Part shown: piece after piece, positions 22,641 to 31,535 of the stretch
Position numbering within the stretch: the first letter of the stretch is position 1
How the letters are laid out: each line of letters starts with the position of its first letter
DNA from: Citrus sinensis
Lineage: Eukaryota; Streptophyta; Magnoliopsida; Sapindales; Rutaceae
Length of the DNA stretch: 64,000 nt
Assembly (NCBI RefSeq): GCF_022201045.2
Contig: NC_068560.1
Location: 27,421,501-27,485,500, forward strand
Direction of reading: 5' to 3'
The notes under the pieces: model-generated
What the model saw: the letters and a program-made list of their open reading frames with translations, nothing else
What the model was told of the DNA's origin: nothing
Databases searched by the model: none
Translations under genes and position numbers: made by a program

Positions 22641-23734
22641 CTGTTTTCCTATGTAAAACATTGTAAATCCATCCATTAAAACCTATAACATTTTAAAAAA
22701 AAATTACTTATTTCATTCTATTTCTTTTACCAAATTTTACTTTCCTATTTAAACAATATACTTTATTTCTGCATTTTAAGCTTTTTCTTTTTCATTCTCT
22801 TCATATGAATATCATATAAACACATGTTAATTCTTTCCCCCTTCGGTCAGCATATCCCCACACAGGTTATTAGATTATACCCTTCAATTAATAAATTCTT
22901 CTATATTAAAAAAATATACCAGTTGTTTAACTCGCAATTCTAAAGGATATATGGTAATTTGTCAAGACGTACCTGTTACGGGTAGGTTTCTTTGAATTAC
23001 AAATCTCCTTACATAGTCCCGTTAGTTGAGATTGTTTCTTTGTGAGAATAAATTGATCTATTTAAAATGCAGACTTCAAAAAGACATAAGACAATAGGGA
23101 AAACTTTCAAACTAATTAAAAAATTACCATATAGAAAGAGAATTTAATCACGATTCTAAAGATATCCATAGATTTAAAACACAGTAAATAACACAACAAT
23201 AATATGAAAATTCGTACCATTAGTTTTCTTTAAGTTGCAGGTGAAAATTTCTTTAACTACATTTTTGTTCTGGGCGTTGATTGAGGCTGATCCTTCGTTG
23301 ATTGAGCTGATTCTTCGTTGAAATTATACTATTTAGTGCTGGTGCTTGGGCGGTCAACCGTAATTTTGTATTTGAGAAAGAGATTCAGAGAAAGCCGACC
23401 AACTTCCAGTCTCACCACAGACCACACCCTCAATTTTTTCATTAAAAGGGGATACCAATTGAATGCCCAATTGCCTGAGCTTTAGAGACAGATGAAAAGG
23501 GAACGGGTAAAAAAATATCTTATTTATACCACATCTCAATCAATCGCAACTGATACTTCCGGTAGCCAACATTAGCCAAAAAAAATATAATCCGTTGGAT
23601 TACTTTTGAGTGCGATCGAACGGCCAATTAATTTTTAAATAAAAAAATCAATAACGATGTATGTGGTGCAGCGTTGTATTACAGGTGGAGCCCTGTTTCA
23701 GACATAACTGTAACATAGCAAAGCCCATATATAC
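22641..23734. other. Upstream region of the second ULP gene
   Basis: AT-rich with no supported coding sequence. It should carry the 5' UTR and promoter of the minus-strand ULP gene. A 'gctgatycttcgttgattgag'-like doublet occurs at about 23287-23321. No terminal inverted repeat was identified. Confidence 0.35.
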
Positions 23735-23985
23735 AACAACTTTGTCAAGTCCATATACCGCGTGAATCGCGGACGGAGGACCTAACAATATTTCCAGTCC
23801 ACACTGGTTAAAAAAACAAAAATAAAAAAAGAAAAGAAAGATAATAACAATAGGCATAACTTCTTTTGAAATGAAATATTTCTAAATTGGAATTTTGCGT
23901 GCAGTATAAGTATTTGAAGAATACGACAGCATTTTCACCACGTTATTAGCTCCTTCATTTCCTTCAGCATTAATTGCTTTTGCAA
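23735..23985 (+). pseudogene. Orphan CNL promoter / 5' leader relic (no coding part)
   Basis: This stretch matches the sequence just upstream of both CNL genes (31222-31480 and 43394-43660). Shared blocks are the 'tttgtcaagtycatata' and 'gcgtgaatcgc' motifs, 'ggacctaacaatat', 'gaaatgaaatatttctaaat', 'ggaattttgc', and 'ttttcaccac' followed by 'tcagctccttcattt'. It stops just before the point where the CNL leader and coding region begin ('tacttgtgcaacaa'). It is therefore the 5' end of a further cluster member whose gene body is lost. The 5-kb retroelement begins about 500 bp downstream. Confidence 0.75.
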
Positions 23986-24481
23986 AATAGTAATTAGAAA
24001 AAGCACCCATAAAAAAAAAAAATTAGAAAAAGCACATGTGTCGAGATTTACTCGGTGGAGTAGTAGTCTTCATCCCTTAATTGGCCACCGTTGTCTGCCA
24101 CTGCACATGAATAGTGAAAAGGCATGGCAATGATAAGGCTTTAACTTGGAAAAGGCCGCGGCCTGGTACGTGCGGTCTAGCACCATCATTTTAAAATATA
24201 GTTCCTTAATTGATTGTTTATGTTAGAATTATGAGAAAGTAGAAAACTAAATAATAAAATAACAAATAATTTTTCTATTCTCCACTTTTCTTCTGTTGAA
24301 AAATTAGAACAAATCATTCTCTATTAGAATTAAATACTATTTAAAAACAAGTTATCCAAACAAATTTTAGATTGCTTCATTATTAAAAAACAAAAAACAC
24401 CAAAACCAAAACAATACCAAACGTACCTTAAGATTCCAATATTATTATGTAACAATATATAAAATATTTTTGTATGTTTAC

Positions 24482-24611
24482 TGTTGAGTTGTGTCCCACA
24501 TTGGCTAGTAAAGGGGAGATGCTTGAGTTTATAAGGTGGTAGGTCACTCGAACTAAAAGGCTTGTCTTTTGGGTTGGATACGTAAAAATCTTATGTTAAA
24601 TTCCCCCAACA
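24482..24611 (+). repeat. Left short LTR (130 bp)
   Basis: Begins TGTTGAGTTGTGTCCCACATTGG and ends CCCCCAACA; it matches 29419-29547 with scattered substitutions. The 'cccacattgg' signature is typical of TRIM-type short LTRs in dicots. Confidence 0.85.
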
Positions 24612-24632
24612 AGTGGTATCAGAGCTTGGTCT
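24612..24632 (+). other. Primer-binding site (initiator tRNA-Met type)
   Basis: The 'tggtatcagagc' core starts two bases after the left LTR. The gag ATG follows only about 20 bp later, at 24650. Confidence 0.8.
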
Positions 24633-24649
24633 TCAAACCAAATACGAGT

Positions 24650-25481
24650 ATGGCTTCAACCAAGATCGATCTGGAGAAGTTTACTGGCAAAAATTATTTT
24701 AACATGTGGAAGGTCAAGATGGAAGCTTTACTGATAACACATGGATTAGGAGATGCAATTGAACCTGTCACCAAGAAGGAAGGGAAAGAAGTATCATCCT
24801 CAAAGACACCTGGAGTGGCTACCGAGATAGACAATAAGGCTAGAAGCACCATTATATTGAGCCTTGGTGACTCAGTGATAAGGGAGGTTGCCAAGGAGAA
24901 GACAGTTGTTGATCTATGGGCCAAACTCGAAAAGATTTATATGACAGTATCTGGCTAATAGATTGTATATCAAAAGGAGGATGTTCACTTTGAAAATGGT
25001 TGAGGGGTCCTCTCTTGATAATCATATCAATGAATTCAATCAAGTTTGTGACACTCTTGAAACCATTGATGAGGGGCTGGATGATGAAGGAAAGGCCTTG
25101 CTTCTGGTGAGTTCTCTACCCCAGTCTTATTCAAATTTTGTTGATGCCCTTATGTATGGAAGACAAACTTTATCCTTAGATGGGGTTAAGGCTGCTTTGA
25201 ATACAAGAGGGCTACAAGAAAAATCTGGGAATATGATGAATGCTGAAGGGTTATCAGTTAAGGGAAAAATTAACAAGAATGATGGAAAGAAGAAAAAACA
25301 AAAGAAAGATAAGTCTAAATCTCAAAACTTGAAGTGCTTTCAATGTCACAAAGAAGGTTATTTCAAGAAAGATTGCCCAAAACTGAAGAACAAGAAAAAT
25401 GAAAGAAATGGTGATGCAGTTACTATGGAAGAAGAAGGTTATGAATCTGTTGGTGTATGTGTGGCTACAGAGGATCTCTAG
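24650..25481 (+). pseudogene. Copia gag, frameshifted
   Basis: Starts MASTKIDLEKFTGKNYFNMW, a typical Copia gag opening. A frameshift near 24945 breaks the frame; the continuation (LANRLYIKRRMF) runs in another frame to 25481. The nucleocapsid zinc knuckle reads CFQCHKEGYFKKDC: the His of the CCHC motif is replaced by Tyr. A K-rich tail follows. Not functional as it stands. Confidence 0.85.
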
Positions 25482-28400
25482 AGAGGCAAATTGATACTAG
25501 ATTCTAGTTGCACCTTTCATATGTGCCCATTTAAAAGTTACTTCTCCGATTACCATAATTTAGATGAGGGAAAAGTAATTATGGGTAACAATGATGTATG
25601 TAAAGTCATAAGCATGGGGAATATAAGTCTTAGGCTTCATAATAGGACAATTTAGGAGCTTAGAGAGGTCAAATATGTTCCTGATTTAAAGAGTAACTTG
25701 ATCTCACTAGGTTTGATTGATCAAAATGGGTTTAGTATTAAGCTTGAATCTGGTAGATTATTAATTGTGAAGGCACTAAGATAGTGATGAAAGGTTCTAA
25801 AAGGAATGGTGTATATGTCCTAGATGGTGAGGCAATTACAGGTATGACTGATGTGATTGTTGGCACTGGTGGGGAAAGCACTAGGCTGTGGCACCTGAGA
25901 TTGGGGCATATGAGTGTTAAGGGATTAAAAGAGCTTGAAAAACAAGGAGTTCTGGGAAAAGATAAGATAGAAGAGTTAAATTTTTGTGAAGATTGTGTCT
26001 TTAGGAAGTCCACAAGAAACAATTTCAAAAATTCAACAAGCAAATCTATTAGCATCGTAGACTACATACACTCTGATCTCTAGGGACCTGTACAGACCAG
26101 TTCATTAAGTGGAAATAACTATTTTTTGTCAGTGATTGATGATTATTCAAGGAAGGTTTGGGTCTATGTACTGAAACACAAAGATCAAGTCTTTAGCAAA
26201 TTTAAAGAATGGAAAACCATAGTTGAAAATCAAACTGGAAAGAAGGTAAAGAAATTGAGAACAGATAATAGACTTGAGTTCTGCAATCAGAAATTTGACA
26301 GCTACTGTGCAAATGAAAGGATAGCAAGGCACAAAACAGTGAGGTTAACACCTCAGCAAAATGGATTGACAGAAAGAATGAACAGAACCTTAATGGATAA
26401 GGTGAGGTGTATGCGGATGCAAGCACAACTTCTAAAAAGTCTCTGGTGAATTTGAATCCCTCTGCTGCTCTGGACTTTAAGACTCAATTTGAAATGTGGC
26501 ATGGGAAACCAGCAAGCTATGCCAATCTCAAAGTGTTTTGATGCCCTGCTTATGCACATGTTAATTAAGGGAAGCTAGCACCAAGGGCTCTTAAAGGTCA
26601 GTTCCTAGGCTATCCTGATGGAGTTAAAGGATATAAACTATGGTGTACTGATCTAGAACCTCCAAGATGCGTAATAAGCATAAATGTGGTGTTTAATGAG
26701 AAAGTTGTTTTGGAGATTAGAAAGGATACTGGGGTTAAAACTCAGAGACCTCAAAAACAAGATAAAATCCAATTTGATGTGGAGCATTCTGGTTCAAAGA
26801 AATCTAAGAAAGATGAAAATTCATATCAAGATAGTGAAGATCATGATGAATGTAATGACCTTCAACCACAATCTCAAAGGCAGACTCAAGTACAAGGTTA
26901 TTAGCTAACAAAAGACAGAGAAATGAGACAAACCAGACCACCACAGAGATATGGATATGCTAATCTGATAGCATATGCACTAGCTACTTCCCATGACATT
27001 GATGTAGATGAACCCAAGAGTTATGCTTAAACAATTCAAAGCTCAAACAAATCAGAATGGCAGAAAGTTATGAATGAAGAGATAGCCTCTCTTAAGAAGA
27101 ATAACACTTGGAAATTAGTTGAGAAGCCTAGTAACAGAAGGACAGTGGGTTGCAAGTGGATTTTCATAATCAAAGAAGGCCTAACAGTTAGTGAACCTAG
27201 GAGGTATAAGGCTAGGCTTGTGGCTAAGGGGTATACTCAAATGGAAGAAGATGACTTTAAAAAGGTGTTCTCCCCTATGGTCAGACATGCTTCCATAAGG
27301 GTGCTATTAGCATTGACTGCAGTCCATGACTTAGAGCTTGATCAACTCGATGTCAAGACTGCATTCTTATATGGAAGACTACATAAAGAAATTCTTATGA
27401 CTCAACCTGAGGGCTATGTGGATTCTGAAAACCAAACCATGTTTGCTTGTTAAAAAGATTATTCTATGGGCTAAAGCAATCTCCAAGGTAATGGTATTTC
27501 AGGTTTGATAAGTTCATGTTGTCATATGGATACCTGAGATGTAGTTTTGATTGCTGTATATATTACAAGCTAATAAATTCAAGTCTCTACATATACATGT
27601 TACTATATGTAGATAACATATTGGTTGCCTGTAAATCAAGAGAGAAAATTGAAGCTTTGAAGAATTTGTTGAGTTCTGAACTTGATATGAAAGATTTGGG
27701 GTCAGCAAAGAAGATTCTGGATATGGAAATCAAGAGGAACAGAAGCAAAGGCATTATGTTCCTTTCTAAGGAAAAATATATGAGAAGGGTACTGAAAACC
27801 TTTGGAATGACCTCATGTAAACTTGTGATGACTCTATTTGGCAGCACATTTTAAGCTCTCCTGTCAGCAATGTCCAAAAACAGAAGAAGAGAAGTTAGAA
27901 ATGGCTAAAATCCCCTATGCTAATGCAATTGGTTGCATGATGTATGCTATGGTCCTAACTAGACCAGATATCTCATATGCTCTAAGTGTAGCAAGCAGAT
28001 ATATGGTGTCTCCTGGAAAAGAACATTGAAGGGCTATAAAATGGGTGATGAAATACCTAAGTGGAACCCTGAACCATGGGCTGGTTTATGGAAGATCAGA
28101 GAGCAAGTCTAATGGGATATGTGGATTTGTTGATTCTGACTTTGCAGGGGACTTAAATAGAATAAGGTCTCTCACAGGGTATTTGTACATGCTGGATGAC
28201 TGCTTGATTAACTAAAAGGCACGTCTTCAACATGTTGTTGCATTATCAACAACAGAAGCTGAGTATACAGCAACTACTGAAGCAGTAAAGGAAGCCTTGT
28301 GGTTGAAAGGCTTGATATCTGAACTATGAGTGAATCAGAAGATTGTAGATGTATTTTGTGATAGCTCAAGTGCCATTTACTTGAGTAAAAACCCAGCTTA

Positions 28401-28581
28401 CCATGAGAAAACAAAGCACATTGACATCAAGCTGCACTTAATAAGAAATGTAGTTTACTTGGGTGTGGTCAGAATGGTGAAGATACATACAGATAGAAAC
28501 CCTGCTGACATGTTAACTAAAGTAGTCACTATAGCTAAGTTCAAGGTTTGCTTGGACATAGCTGGTCTTGGCTGCTATTGA
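25482..28581 (+). pseudogene. Copia pol (protease, integrase, RT, RNase H), decayed
   Basis: Domain order PR-IN-RT-RH identifies Ty1/Copia. The protease motif reads LDSSC where DSG is usual. The integrase zinc-binding region (WHLRLGHMS... CEDC) and core (HSD, then stop where Trp is usual; RTDN; ERMNRT) lie at about 25784-26449. RT lies at 27070-27854 and its catalytic box reads YVDN instead of YVDD. RNase H (AEYTA... DSSSAIYLSKNP) ends at 28581. Several in-frame stops (for example 26081-26083) and frameshifts separate the pieces, so the element cannot move by itself. Confidence 0.88.
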
Positions 28582-28635
28582 TTCATTATAGAATGGAGGG
28601 GATAATTAGGGGTGATTTGTTTCAAGGTGGAGAAT

Positions 28636-29307
28636 TGTTGTTTGTGAAAGCAAATTCAGAAAAATAAAACAGCAGAAGACCTTGCGTTTAGAGCTGGAAT
28701 CACTTAAAGCTCAACGACAGGAATACATGCGTTTTGAGGAGCAAAACAAACACTCTTCTGAACGACATATGAGCTTGCCATTTAACCTTAAGTGAAGCAT
28801 GCGCGTATCACGTGCTTGGATCCAGCTCACAAGGTTCGTTAAAATCTGTTAACACATGAGGAACTCACGTGAGTTACTGGGGAATTTCTGGGTTCGTTAT
28901 GAGGCTGTTATCAAGTAGCTGATGTGGAAACAACATATTGGAGTAGAGAGAGAGAGCTGTAGAGAGAGAGAGATGACTGGTATAAATAAGCAATCCAGAT
29001 CTTTTGTGTAAACTAACAACATTACTCTGTAAATCATCTTGATAATCAAAATATATGATATTTGCCCTCCCGTGGATGTAAGCTAGAGAAATCTAGCTGA
29101 ACCACGTAAAATCTCTCTTGTTCTTTGTTTGTTCTACATCTTTTGGTTTCTTAAATTCAATTGGTTAATAGTATTAGTCTAGTTCCATTGATTCATCTTA
29201 GTCAAAGTTCTTCAGTCGTCAATCTTGGAGCATCTTGATTGTTTGGTTGGTGATCTTGGGCAGGATCTAAGGTTGCTTAATCTGTTTATAGCACATTAGG
29301 TCCAACA
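28636..29307 (+). repeat. Single Copia LTR (672 bp)
   Basis: Begins TGTTG right after a purine-rich tract (caaggtggagaat) and ends CCAACA, followed within two bases by a tRNA-Met PBS. So it has a 3'-LTR context on its left and a 5'-LTR context on its right. It contains GA repeats and a TATA box. No second copy lies in the window. Confidence 0.75.
28981..28988 (+). promoter_or_regulatory. Likely LTR TATA box
   Basis: TATAAATA within the Copia LTR, downstream of a GA-rich tract. Transcription would start about 30 bp further on. Confidence 0.55.
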
Positions 29308-29418
29308 AATGGTATCAGAGCTAGACCCTAGCAGCCGGAATATGGTGGTGGAACAACTCAGGTGTGTCGGACGAAAGGACCGGAGTCCGACGGTGGTTTC
29401 GTCCGGGGGGGGGGGGAT
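29308..29418 (+). other. TRIM-like interior with second PBS and polypurine tract
   Basis: Begins 'aatggtatcagagc' and ends with a run of 12 G followed by 'att' just before the right short LTR. It has no coding capacity and is GC-richer than the surroundings. This is the expected whole interior of a TRIM: PBS, short linker, polypurine tract. Confidence 0.65.
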
Positions 29419-29547
29419 TGTTGAGTTGTGTCACACATTGGCTAGTAAATGGGAGATATTTGGGTTTATATGGTGGTAGGTTACTTCACCTAAAATGCTA
29501 GTCTTTTGGGTTGAATACCTAGAAATCTTATGTTAAGTCCCCCAACA
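29419..29547 (+). repeat. Right short LTR (129 bp)
   Basis: Matches 24482-24611; begins TGTTGAG and ends CCCCCAACA, then the TTTAC target duplication. Confidence 0.85.
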
Positions 29548-29552
29548 TTTAC

Positions 29553-30587
29553 AAACTTTTTTTTTAAATTTTAGTGAATTTACTTCTCTCCATGAGAATA
29601 ATTGAATATTATCATATGTTACGTTATATTTGTTAAACTGGCCAAGTTTATAACAGCTATGTCCAAAGCCACGATCTAAAGATATCATATTCTGGAAAGC
29701 AAACAAAATTACTAAAAATTCGACATTAATAAATATATATTAAAATTGATTAATTTCATGTAGTAAATGAATCAACTATGCATAGATTGTGTGATCGATC
29801 GGAGGATAACTGGAATGGTGCAAGAGAGACTAGAGAGTTATTAATCAAATTGTTTGGTTTAATTACGCTTTCTCACTGCTAGTGCTATCTACTCGTAATC
29901 AATTTCCTAATAATGTTTCAATTACAACAAAGTCGTTATGAAAAAAATTACTGTGTTGCTCGATCCTTTTTTGTTTTTTAAATGCGTCATGTCAAACTGA
30001 TTTGTTGGGCATGTTGTTATTGAGATTTTTAAAACAATATTATTTTTTGAACAGGGGAATTACCGAAGGGCAGAGCAGAGCTTTTGAATTCGAGTCTAAA
30101 ACAACTACTTGATAACAAGAATGTCAATTAATTGGTAATAAATACTGACATCTGTTATGTCATCCGCAATGATCGTCATTTCCTGATGTTCAATTACAAA
30201 GTCATCAAACGACTATGTATTCCTTATTATTTATTTTATAAACAATTACTGATTTGTTAATTGGGCATGCAGTTATTAGATTTTTAAAACAATAATTAGA
30301 AGATATCAGCAGTTTTAAGTATCTTCTAAGAAAAATTACAAAGTTACAGTATGGGGGAAAACAAAAATCTTCTAAGTTTGAAAATTATTGACGGTTTTCG
30401 TCTGCAAGCAACTTTCAGGAATCTTCAAGTTGTTATTGTGCTCCATCAAAAAGAAAATTAAGCGCTGATCGTTCAAACGTTCAAATCACTTGAAAATGAA
30501 TTTGAGAATCACACGTTAAACTTTAGCCTTCTACGTGGAATAATTAGAAATATAGCTGTATGGGTCCATGAATTATTATATCTTTGA
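29553..30587. other. Gene-free cluster flank with duplicated fragments
   Basis: No ORF. 29620-29680 resembles the sequences near 37990-38040 and 49199-49258 (upstream of the GUX copies: 'gaccaagttcatgaca... gaagccac'). About 29990-30090 and 30180-30300 carry a motif family ('tgatttgttgggcatg' ... 'gattttaaaacaatatt') that recurs near 34750, 46390, 54085, 62190 and 63860. These are leftovers of older rearrangement in the cluster. Confidence 0.5.
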
Positions 30588-31535
30588 TAATATTCACGTG
30601 TTGCAATTATATGGTAGTTCACAATGACAATCAACCCATCGTTCTCATATTTAGATGCCATGAATAGAACAAACAAAAGGTTTTGTCTTTTTTCTGCATT
30701 ACAATTTTTACTTTTTATTTTCGTTTTGTAATATTTATGTCACTTTATTACAAATTAATTTTTTAAAAAAGTTTATATTAAATTTTGAAATGATTAGAAA
30801 TAGAAAATTATGTGAATATCCAGCTCTAGATTGATCATTTTATACGTAATGAGAAATAACTAATGATGAATTGTTATCTATTATTGTTGAAAAACTAGTA
30901 GAAAAGATTATTTGATTTTTCACACTTCACAATCAAAGTTAGAGATTAAACTCTAAACTCCCACTATCAGACATCTGCTAAAATGAAAAAATCTAAATAA
31001 AGTGGTTCGATATGAATCTTAGAATATTATGTGGCAGCGTTTTCATAGTTTAATTGTATGATCATTCTCTCCTTCCAACTAATTATGCAAAACGAGTCAA
31101 ATTTTGATGAAAAAAAAGAGAAGAAAATAAGAAAGAGATGGTCAAGGTATTTCTAAGCTAATAATACACGTATAATTATCTAACAACTTGTTCAATTATT
31201 TAAAAAGAAATCATAGAAAACTTTGTCAAGTTCATATACTGCGTGAATCGCCGATGTAGGACCTAACAATATATTATTTCGTGTCCACAACAGTATGTCA
31301 TTTTCACTCTTTGCTATTATTAAAAAAAAAATAGTAATAATAATAACAGCAGCTTCTTTCAAAAGGGCTGAAATGAAATATTTCTAAATCGGAATTTTGC
31401 TTGCAGTACTATAAGAATTGAAAGAATACGGCAACATTTTCACCACATTATCAGCTCCTTCATTTCTTTCAGCATTACTTACTTGTGCAACAATTCACCA
31501 TCAATTTCTTCTCTCTCTCTTTTTTCTTTTTCATG

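Follow-up and report, generated by a model that had tools for sequence, protein, structure and literature searches.

A TRIM–Copia hybrid joined at a common primer-binding site

A 64,000-nt stretch of the Citrus sinensis genome (the window, in which the positions of element A are numbered; other loci are given as C1–C9 coordinates) contains, at 24482–29547, an element in which a terminal-repeat retrotransposon in miniature (TRIM) is combined with a Ty1/Copia retrotransposon. This element, designated A, is read as a hybrid formed before integration, by strand transfer at the 12-nt primer-binding site (PBS) that the two families have in common, with a probability of about 0.77. The reading starts from what was observed: the anatomy of A, joins at the PBS, matching flanks, and recurrence with different Copia types.

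With T and C denoting the TRIM and Copia long terminal repeats (LTRs), and t and c the respective interiors, the order of A is T-PBS-c-C-PBS-t-T. The chimera at a shared PBS proposed in the first-pass annotation proved to be real; at each of its two joins, the switch of family falls at the PBS. The short LTRs and the perfect TTTAC target-site duplications (TSDs) around a Copia interior, with a single right-hand Copia LTR and a second PBS, were likewise confirmed by direct reading.

All features of A lie on the plus strand, between the left (24477–24481) and right (29548–29552) TTTAC. The 5′ TRIM LTR (24482–24611, placed by sequence comparison) runs from TGTTGAG to CCCAACA; the length of 130 bp previously given for the TRIM LTR holds for this copy, and the 3′ LTR (29419–29547) has 129 bp. 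The 5′ copy is 83–90% identical to the TRIM LTRs of other chimeras and 85–94% identical to complete TRIM LTRs of plain or tandem copies. It is followed by a spacer AG (24612–24613), the same in most plain TRIMs, and by the first PBS, TGGTATCAGAGC (24614–24625), presumably that of initiator tRNA-Met, where the junction comparison places the TRIM/Copia join.

The Ty1/Copia interior (24626–28635) carries many stops and frameshifts. Pfam searches on its separate pieces, with frames cut at stops, identified gag (Retrotran_gag_2, 24629–25478), gag_pre-integrase (gag_pre-integrs, 25757–26080), integrase (rve, 26084–26446) and reverse transcriptase pieces (RVT_2, 27031–27851), an order of gag, integrase and reverse transcriptase that is that of Ty1/Copia. 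The gag is 85–89% identical to that of the standard Copia loci L041–L051. A putative Copia polypurine tract, AAGGTGGAGAAT (28624–28635), recognized from its place just 5′ of the LTR, precedes the single complete Copia LTR of 672 bp (28636–29307, from comparison with Copia relatives). A spacer AA (29308–29309; AT in Copia relatives, AG in most TRIMs) leads to the second PBS, again TGGTATCAGAGC (29310–29321). According to the junction comparison, the Copia/TRIM join falls within this PBS or within the 13 nt that follow. The TRIM interior (29322–29418), including a G-rich tract at 29405–29418 ahead of the 3′ LTR, completes the element.

The PBS occurs at exactly two sites (24614 and 29310) in the 64 kb, on both strands and with up to one substitution allowed, and a 21-mer around it is common to both sites with one base different. 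The outer shell of A is that of a TRIM: 130-bp LTRs, a tiny non-coding interior, a PBS, a purine tract and a 5-bp TSD. As a whole, A is not the short, non-coding element that a TRIM is, given the Copia interior of about 4 kb inside it. The Copia part lacks an LTR of its own at both ends, having only the internal one of 672 bp.

Recurrence of the hybrids in the genome

In each DNA search, the best 40 candidates were scored. These searches yielded at least six different chimeric loci (A to F). In the five besides A, the TRIM is the same and the partners bring four further Copia LTR types; the reciprocal order and hybrids with unlike LTR ends are among them. With window 24482–25000 as the query, TRIM LTR and Copia gag were spanned at L052, L053 and L057 among the 30 loci returned, besides the window and a duplicate of A described below. 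The TRIM query 29100–29543 gave 87 matches from the best 40 of 213 candidates, representing 28 TRIM loci apart from the window and the duplicate (27 distinct, L021 and L029 being one array). A Copia LTR stood in the place of the TRIM LTR upstream of the TRIM interior in two of the 28, L023 and L018.

Locus B (C3:37647138-37652639) reads C-PBS-t-T-PBS-c-C, the reciprocal of A; a short stretch is deleted at the t/T border, and the flanks are CCAAC/CCAGC. Locus C (C9:16873507-16867038, minus strand) reads T-PBS-t-T-join-c-C between GTTTG and ATTTG. Two loci begin and end with LTRs of different families, one TRIM and one Copia: D (C4:16848966-16855748), T-PBS-c-C between AATAT and AATAT, and E (C9:8766558-8765262, minus strand), C-PBS-t-T between ATGTC and ATGTC, whose Copia LTR has an internal duplication of about 430 bp. 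Locus F (L018, C1:7894760-7897998, minus strand) reads C-PBS-t-T(interrupted)-PBS-t-T, with only the end of the Copia LTR reached at the left; its right-hand flank is TTATA. The interruption at oriented positions 312–1490 of L018 is an inverted internal Copia piece of about 1.2 kb, without an LTR seen, lying inside the TRIM LTR, about 44 bp of which are lost.

In the five chimeras with both ends, flank pentamers matched at 5/5 positions in A, D and E, and at 4/5 in B and C. The ends of the Copia LTRs were established independently of the flanks, for C with the relative L062, for D with L060/L063, for the start of E with L019, and for B with the element's own LTR pair. For random pairs of flank pentamers, the chance of a match was P = 0.0022 at 5/5 and P = 0.026 at 4/5 or better; between different TRIM loci, 5/5 was reached in 1 of 306 pairs and at least 4/5 in 15. 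Because of these chance rates, the flank evidence is strong for A, D and E individually, and modest for B and C. The flank matches of these five point to joining ahead of integration, most simply through an intermolecular strand transfer at the PBS common to both families.

The Copia partners of A, C and D fall into three separate gag clades in the gag tree. The LTR of B matched none of those of A, C, D and E, and E and F carry one common Copia LTR type, the fifth. The occurrence of several independent hybrids suggests joining during reverse transcription, before entry into the chromosome. The order of events follows from D and E, which have unlike LTR ends and one TSD each: recombination of chromosomal elements would pair two different flanks, so these two were joined before they integrated.

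The same loci bear on two other routes to A. In one, a Copia element was nested exactly at the TRIM LTR/PBS border and its 5′ LTR was later lost by deletion between the two PBSs. The likeness of the PBS in both elements makes such a deletion possible, and Copia-like insertions are described in the maize TRIM Wukong (excerpt of PMC6934838). Insertion at exactly this target and the deletion after it would have had to happen several times, and the reciprocal B and the hybrids D and E would be left unexplained; on B, D and E this very improbable route was rejected.

In the other, which the first-pass annotation offered beside a template switch during reverse transcription, a circular Copia DNA with one LTR recombined with a TRIM that was present in the chromosome beforehand, by way of the PBS identity of 12–13 bp. 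It yields exactly the order of A. The homology is only 12–13 bp, and the circle is unable to make D and E, with their unlike LTR ends and own TSDs, so that it appears unlikely, although less so than any other rival considered here. Of the two routes proposed, reverse transcription is thus the better supported and the circle the less, because sibling hybrids with unlike LTR ends carry TSDs of their own.

Position of the joins

In the junction table, seven of the eight TRIM/Copia joins (A-left, A-right, B-left, B-right, D, E and F) fall in the 12-nt PBS or in identical bases beside it, and at these seven the DNA belongs to one family on the left side of the PBS and to the other on its right side. 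Since both candidates for D have an identical spacer, the join of D possibly lies in the spacer; that of A-right possibly lies in the next 13 nt, which are also present in L051, a Copia relative. The spacer AG, as in most TRIMs, follows the TRIM LTR in A-left and B-right, and AAT follows the Copia LTR in B-left, E and F. A rule that the spacer of 2–3 nt always travels with the left LTR was dropped, A-right (AA) and D (AT) being uninformative.

The internal 672-bp LTR of A matches its Copia family over its full length, and because it is Copia-like throughout, the join in A does not lie in the repeat (R) region. This decides against a minus-strand jump between the R regions of two RNAs, the model of Sabot and Schulman (2007) for Triticeae complexes. 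That model also gives three-LTR complexes with TSDs (PMC1950507), but it predicts LTRs that change family at R, whereas the Copia LTR of A is uniform and the change comes at the PBS. A switch in the R region was therefore rejected, and we consider it the least probable of the explanations.

Four loci, L019, L020, L032 and L051, were not counted as PBS joins. In L019 (C9:18568711-18571949), at about 1376–1378, an inverted Copia LTR start stands head to head with a TRIM LTR start, with one base between them; the TRIM there is without its own TSD (2/5), and the locus may be another join made before integration. In L020 (C8:18766879-18770117, minus strand), at oriented positions of about 1400–1410, the Copia 3′ LTR end CACAACA is followed by AAATGG and then by the TRIM LTR from its position 29. 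A short sequence is in common at the PBS border, and the LTR is 78% like that of B. In L032 (C5:2904061-2907296, minus strand), an inverted Copia gag is broken within the PBS and joined to position 74 of the TRIM LTR.

L051 (C7:19339719-19343111) is a Copia element with a long LTR that ends like that of the window (GGTCC-ACA). At 1442–1530, after the PBS and before the gag leader, it contains two tandem short pieces, each of which starts TAGACCC(C/T)AGTAG like the TRIM interior and ends PBS-like, CAAGT(A/G)GTGTCAGA(G/T)C. Judged by sequence likeness, the pieces may be what is left of minor PBS slips, or PBS switches, between TRIM and Copia, and so a further trace of exchange; alternatively, the TRIM interior could have taken its start from such a Copia.

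Copia partners with LTRs of their own

Twenty-eight Copia-related loci (L041–L068) were compared. Most or all of the 672-bp LTR was matched upstream of the PBS and gag in 11 of them (L041–L051; in L044 in two parts); the other 17 had short stretches only (11 loci) or no match (6 loci). That the 672-bp segment is a true LTR elsewhere was borne out at C2:21759427-21764819, where it forms both ends, 95.1% identical, with ACTCT on each side. The contrary possibility raised in the first-pass annotation, namely that the 130-bp sequence is the true LTR of a standard Copia family, was not upheld: ordinary Copia elements carry two LTRs of about 670 bp. L041 and L042, 54 kb apart on C2, are nearly identical in gag, LTR and adjoining flank, which identifies them as a local segmental duplication.

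These comparisons bear on the rice model of Gao et al. (2016), by which the 130-bp LTR would belong to an autonomous Copia family and the TRIMs would be its internal deletions. In its favour, Copia interiors flanked by TRIM LTRs occur here, as they do in rice OsajLTRA10 (excerpt of PMC4717578), and the leader of the Copia L051 contains the same 13 nt with which the TRIM interior begins. Against this, every TRIM-LTR/Copia locus found uses a Copia type with a long LTR of its own: about 670 bp for A (in the two-LTR element), the outer pair in B, and the LTRs known through L062 for C and through L060/L063 for D. Moreover, A retains a long Copia LTR inside, and L051 has a long LTR too. The TRIM-like pieces of L051 slightly raised the standing of the deletion model, which we nevertheless hold to be very doubtful, on a level with the nested insertion, and they slightly lowered that of a hybrid joined before integration, to the probability given above.

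Proposed course of the joining

The PBS has a role in the second strand transfer of reverse transcription. In the formation of a TRIM–Copia hybrid, a DNA strand ending in the PBS sequence would anneal to the PBS complement in the cDNA of the other element. This could take place as a second-strand transfer between molecules, and a minus-strand switch from one PBS to the other would serve equally well. A plus strand of one element, whose end is PBS sequence, would land on the minus strand of the other and give exactly D or E, so that a single join would make an element whose end LTRs are unlike. A second transfer, or an incoming strand longer than strong-stop, would give the three-LTR forms A and B and the TRIM tandems. 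The hybrid would then have integrated once, with a 5-bp TSD, and decayed in place. Both the co-packaging of TRIM and Copia RNAs and the identity of the strand that switched are inferred.

Strand transfer between templates is normal in the reverse transcription of LTR elements, and the tobacco non-autonomous mini-Tnt1, a Copia element, is mobilised in trans and switches templates (both from the excerpt of PMC2923131).

The TRIM tandems fit this mechanism because most of the arrays have matching flanks: among five, three matched at 5/5 and one at 4/5, and the left end of one was not located. The arrays L021/L029 (C2:6247670-6248508), L024, L035 and L038 consist of two to three units with LTRs in common; the tandem-array flanks are AAAAC, CTTAT and GTTAT at 5/5, and one pair at 4/5.

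Points against joining before integration, and dating

Several points weigh against a hybrid joined at the PBS before integration. The join of C lies outside the PBS, with five extra bases: AG is followed by these five and then by the Copia PBS, and the AG would correspond to the end of an unprocessed TRIM cDNA. The flanks of B and C match only at 4/5, a level also reached by the 15 of 306 cross-locus pairs. Co-packaging of TRIM and Copia is a supposition of the scheme. The fourth point comes from dating, which was intended to tell a single event from two events.

The outer TRIM LTRs of A are 86.0% identical over 129 aligned sites (Kimura two-parameter distance 0.155). In the comparison of short-LTR divergence suggested earlier, 18 plain TRIM LTR pairs had a mean distance of 0.055 (range 0 to 0.145; identity 87 to 100%); A is therefore old. 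Its LTR pair corresponds to about 0.078 changes per site in each lineage. In the gag tree, built from the 28 relatives minus L057 and L064, whose matches were too short, the branch private to A was about 0.042. Hand estimates from the gag table ranged from 0.03 to 0.08, varying with the pair used, and the tree value was preferred. Joint arrival with one neutral rate predicts a gag branch not shorter than the LTR lineage, and 0.042 is shorter than 0.078, by roughly two standard errors in a hand estimate. The dating test thus speaks mildly against joining before integration. A private Copia gag divergence lower than that of the TRIM LTR pair fits the later arrival that a circle would entail; two different TRIM templates would be another explanation of the gap. 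The two LTRs of A have one non-majority site in common, of 9 in the left and 13 in the right (the last three of these being end misalignment), which is consistent with decay from one ancestor and is not proof of it.

Plain TRIMs and the segmental duplicate of A

Plain TRIM copies without Copia, for which a search had been proposed, are common elsewhere in the genome. The 18 plain LTR-interior-LTR loci are the 28 minus those that are tandem, truncated or chimeric (L018, L020, L021, L023, L024, L029, L032, L033, L035 and L038), and their flanking pentamers matched at 5/5 in 11, at 4/5 in three and at 3/5 or less in four.

A second full copy of A was located at C5:28052300-28057355, on the same contig, inverted, 99% alike and about 600 kb away. 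It was first taken as proof that the chimera had transposed, and this was rejected: non-element flanks match the window on both sides, over about 790 bp at the left (from 23693) and at least 1.25 kb at the right (to at least 30805). Because of these common flanks, the copy is a segmental duplicate and not a transposed chimera; alternatively, the inverted duplicate could be an assembly artefact. The duplicate stretch (C5:28050800-28058855, against window 23693–30805) has an insertion of about 220 bp relative to the window near 30250. At 29405–29416 the window has a run of 12 G, in place of GGGGGAGG in the duplicate and GAGGGGGGG in most plain TRIMs; slippage or assembly may account for it.

The proposed search for the same chimera transposed to other loci therefore returned this duplicate as the only full copy, and no chimera moved as a unit was seen among the listed matches. 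The suggestion that TRIMs could acquire coding genes is supported as an event.

Comparison with known systems

Chimeric LTR elements arising through template switching are already known. New here is the recurrence of TRIM/Copia hybrids, joined at the PBS; a literature search of titles and abstract openings found no PBS-joined TRIM–Copia hybrid named. We put forward, at about even odds, a wider proposal: joining from PBS to PBS of unrelated elements with the same primer would be a regular by-product of plant reverse transcription, yielding integration-competent hybrids with unlike LTRs; TRIMs would take up whole coding Copia units in this way; and published 'autonomous ancestors' such as OsajLTRA10 would be hybrids of this kind. 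If so, TRIMs in OsajLTRA10-type elements gained coding genes and did not lose them. Both the mover of TRIMs and their origin from coding elements by loss are described as unsettled in the excerpt of PMC4717578. PBS-joined hybrids would also record the Copia families with which a TRIM shared particles. They show that a single error of reverse transcription joins two unrelated families by a route other than R-region switching. The proposal is directly testable in any assembled plant genome, and it questions a specific published conclusion.

Tandem TRIM and Cassandra arrays, as described in excerpts of PMC4717578 and PMC7215508, have the order LTR-interior-LTR-interior-LTR, with TSDs in maize examples, and are present here too. 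Unlike A, they involve a single family and no coding partner. For Onsen of Arabidopsis, the excerpt of PMC5668417 reports recombination between co-transposing elements, mostly credited to the first template switch. Those recombinants belong to one family and, within LTRs, are joined mostly at R, a PBS join not being described in that excerpt. The Veju long form and BARE-2 (PMC1950507 and PMC13317346, in excerpt) are chimeras attributed to template switching, and are compared by that attribution alone.

The complexes of Triticeae, rice and maize (PMC1950507) have, like A, three LTRs inside TSDs and are credited to two co-packaged RNAs. In the Triticeae complexes, the partners are related members of one family with the join modelled at R, whereas the Citrus sinensis hybrids combine unrelated families, are joined at the PBS and include two-LTR forms with unlike ends. 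The complexes of Sabot and Schulman (2007) have highly similar outer LTRs; those of A are 86% identical, below the 87 to 100% of the 18 plain TRIM pairs.

A close likeness is to rice OsajLTRA10/OsajRetroS10 (Gao et al. 2016), here taken from the excerpt of PMC4717578. Like A, OsajLTRA10 has short TRIM-type LTRs and a Ty1-copia interior; the whole TRIM lies in two parts (1–130 and 131–408) around the Copia insert, in the same order as in A, and a PBS-containing 25-mer stands on both sides of the break, as the PBS does in A at 24614 and 29310. All functional domains are reported for it, with transcription and three complete copies in Nipponbare, whereas A is full of stops; the excerpt mentions no internal Copia LTR, in contrast to the 672-bp internal LTR of A. 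It was published as the putative autonomous partner or ancestor of the TRIM. From its published anatomy, we predict that OsajLTRA10 may be the same kind of hybrid as A.

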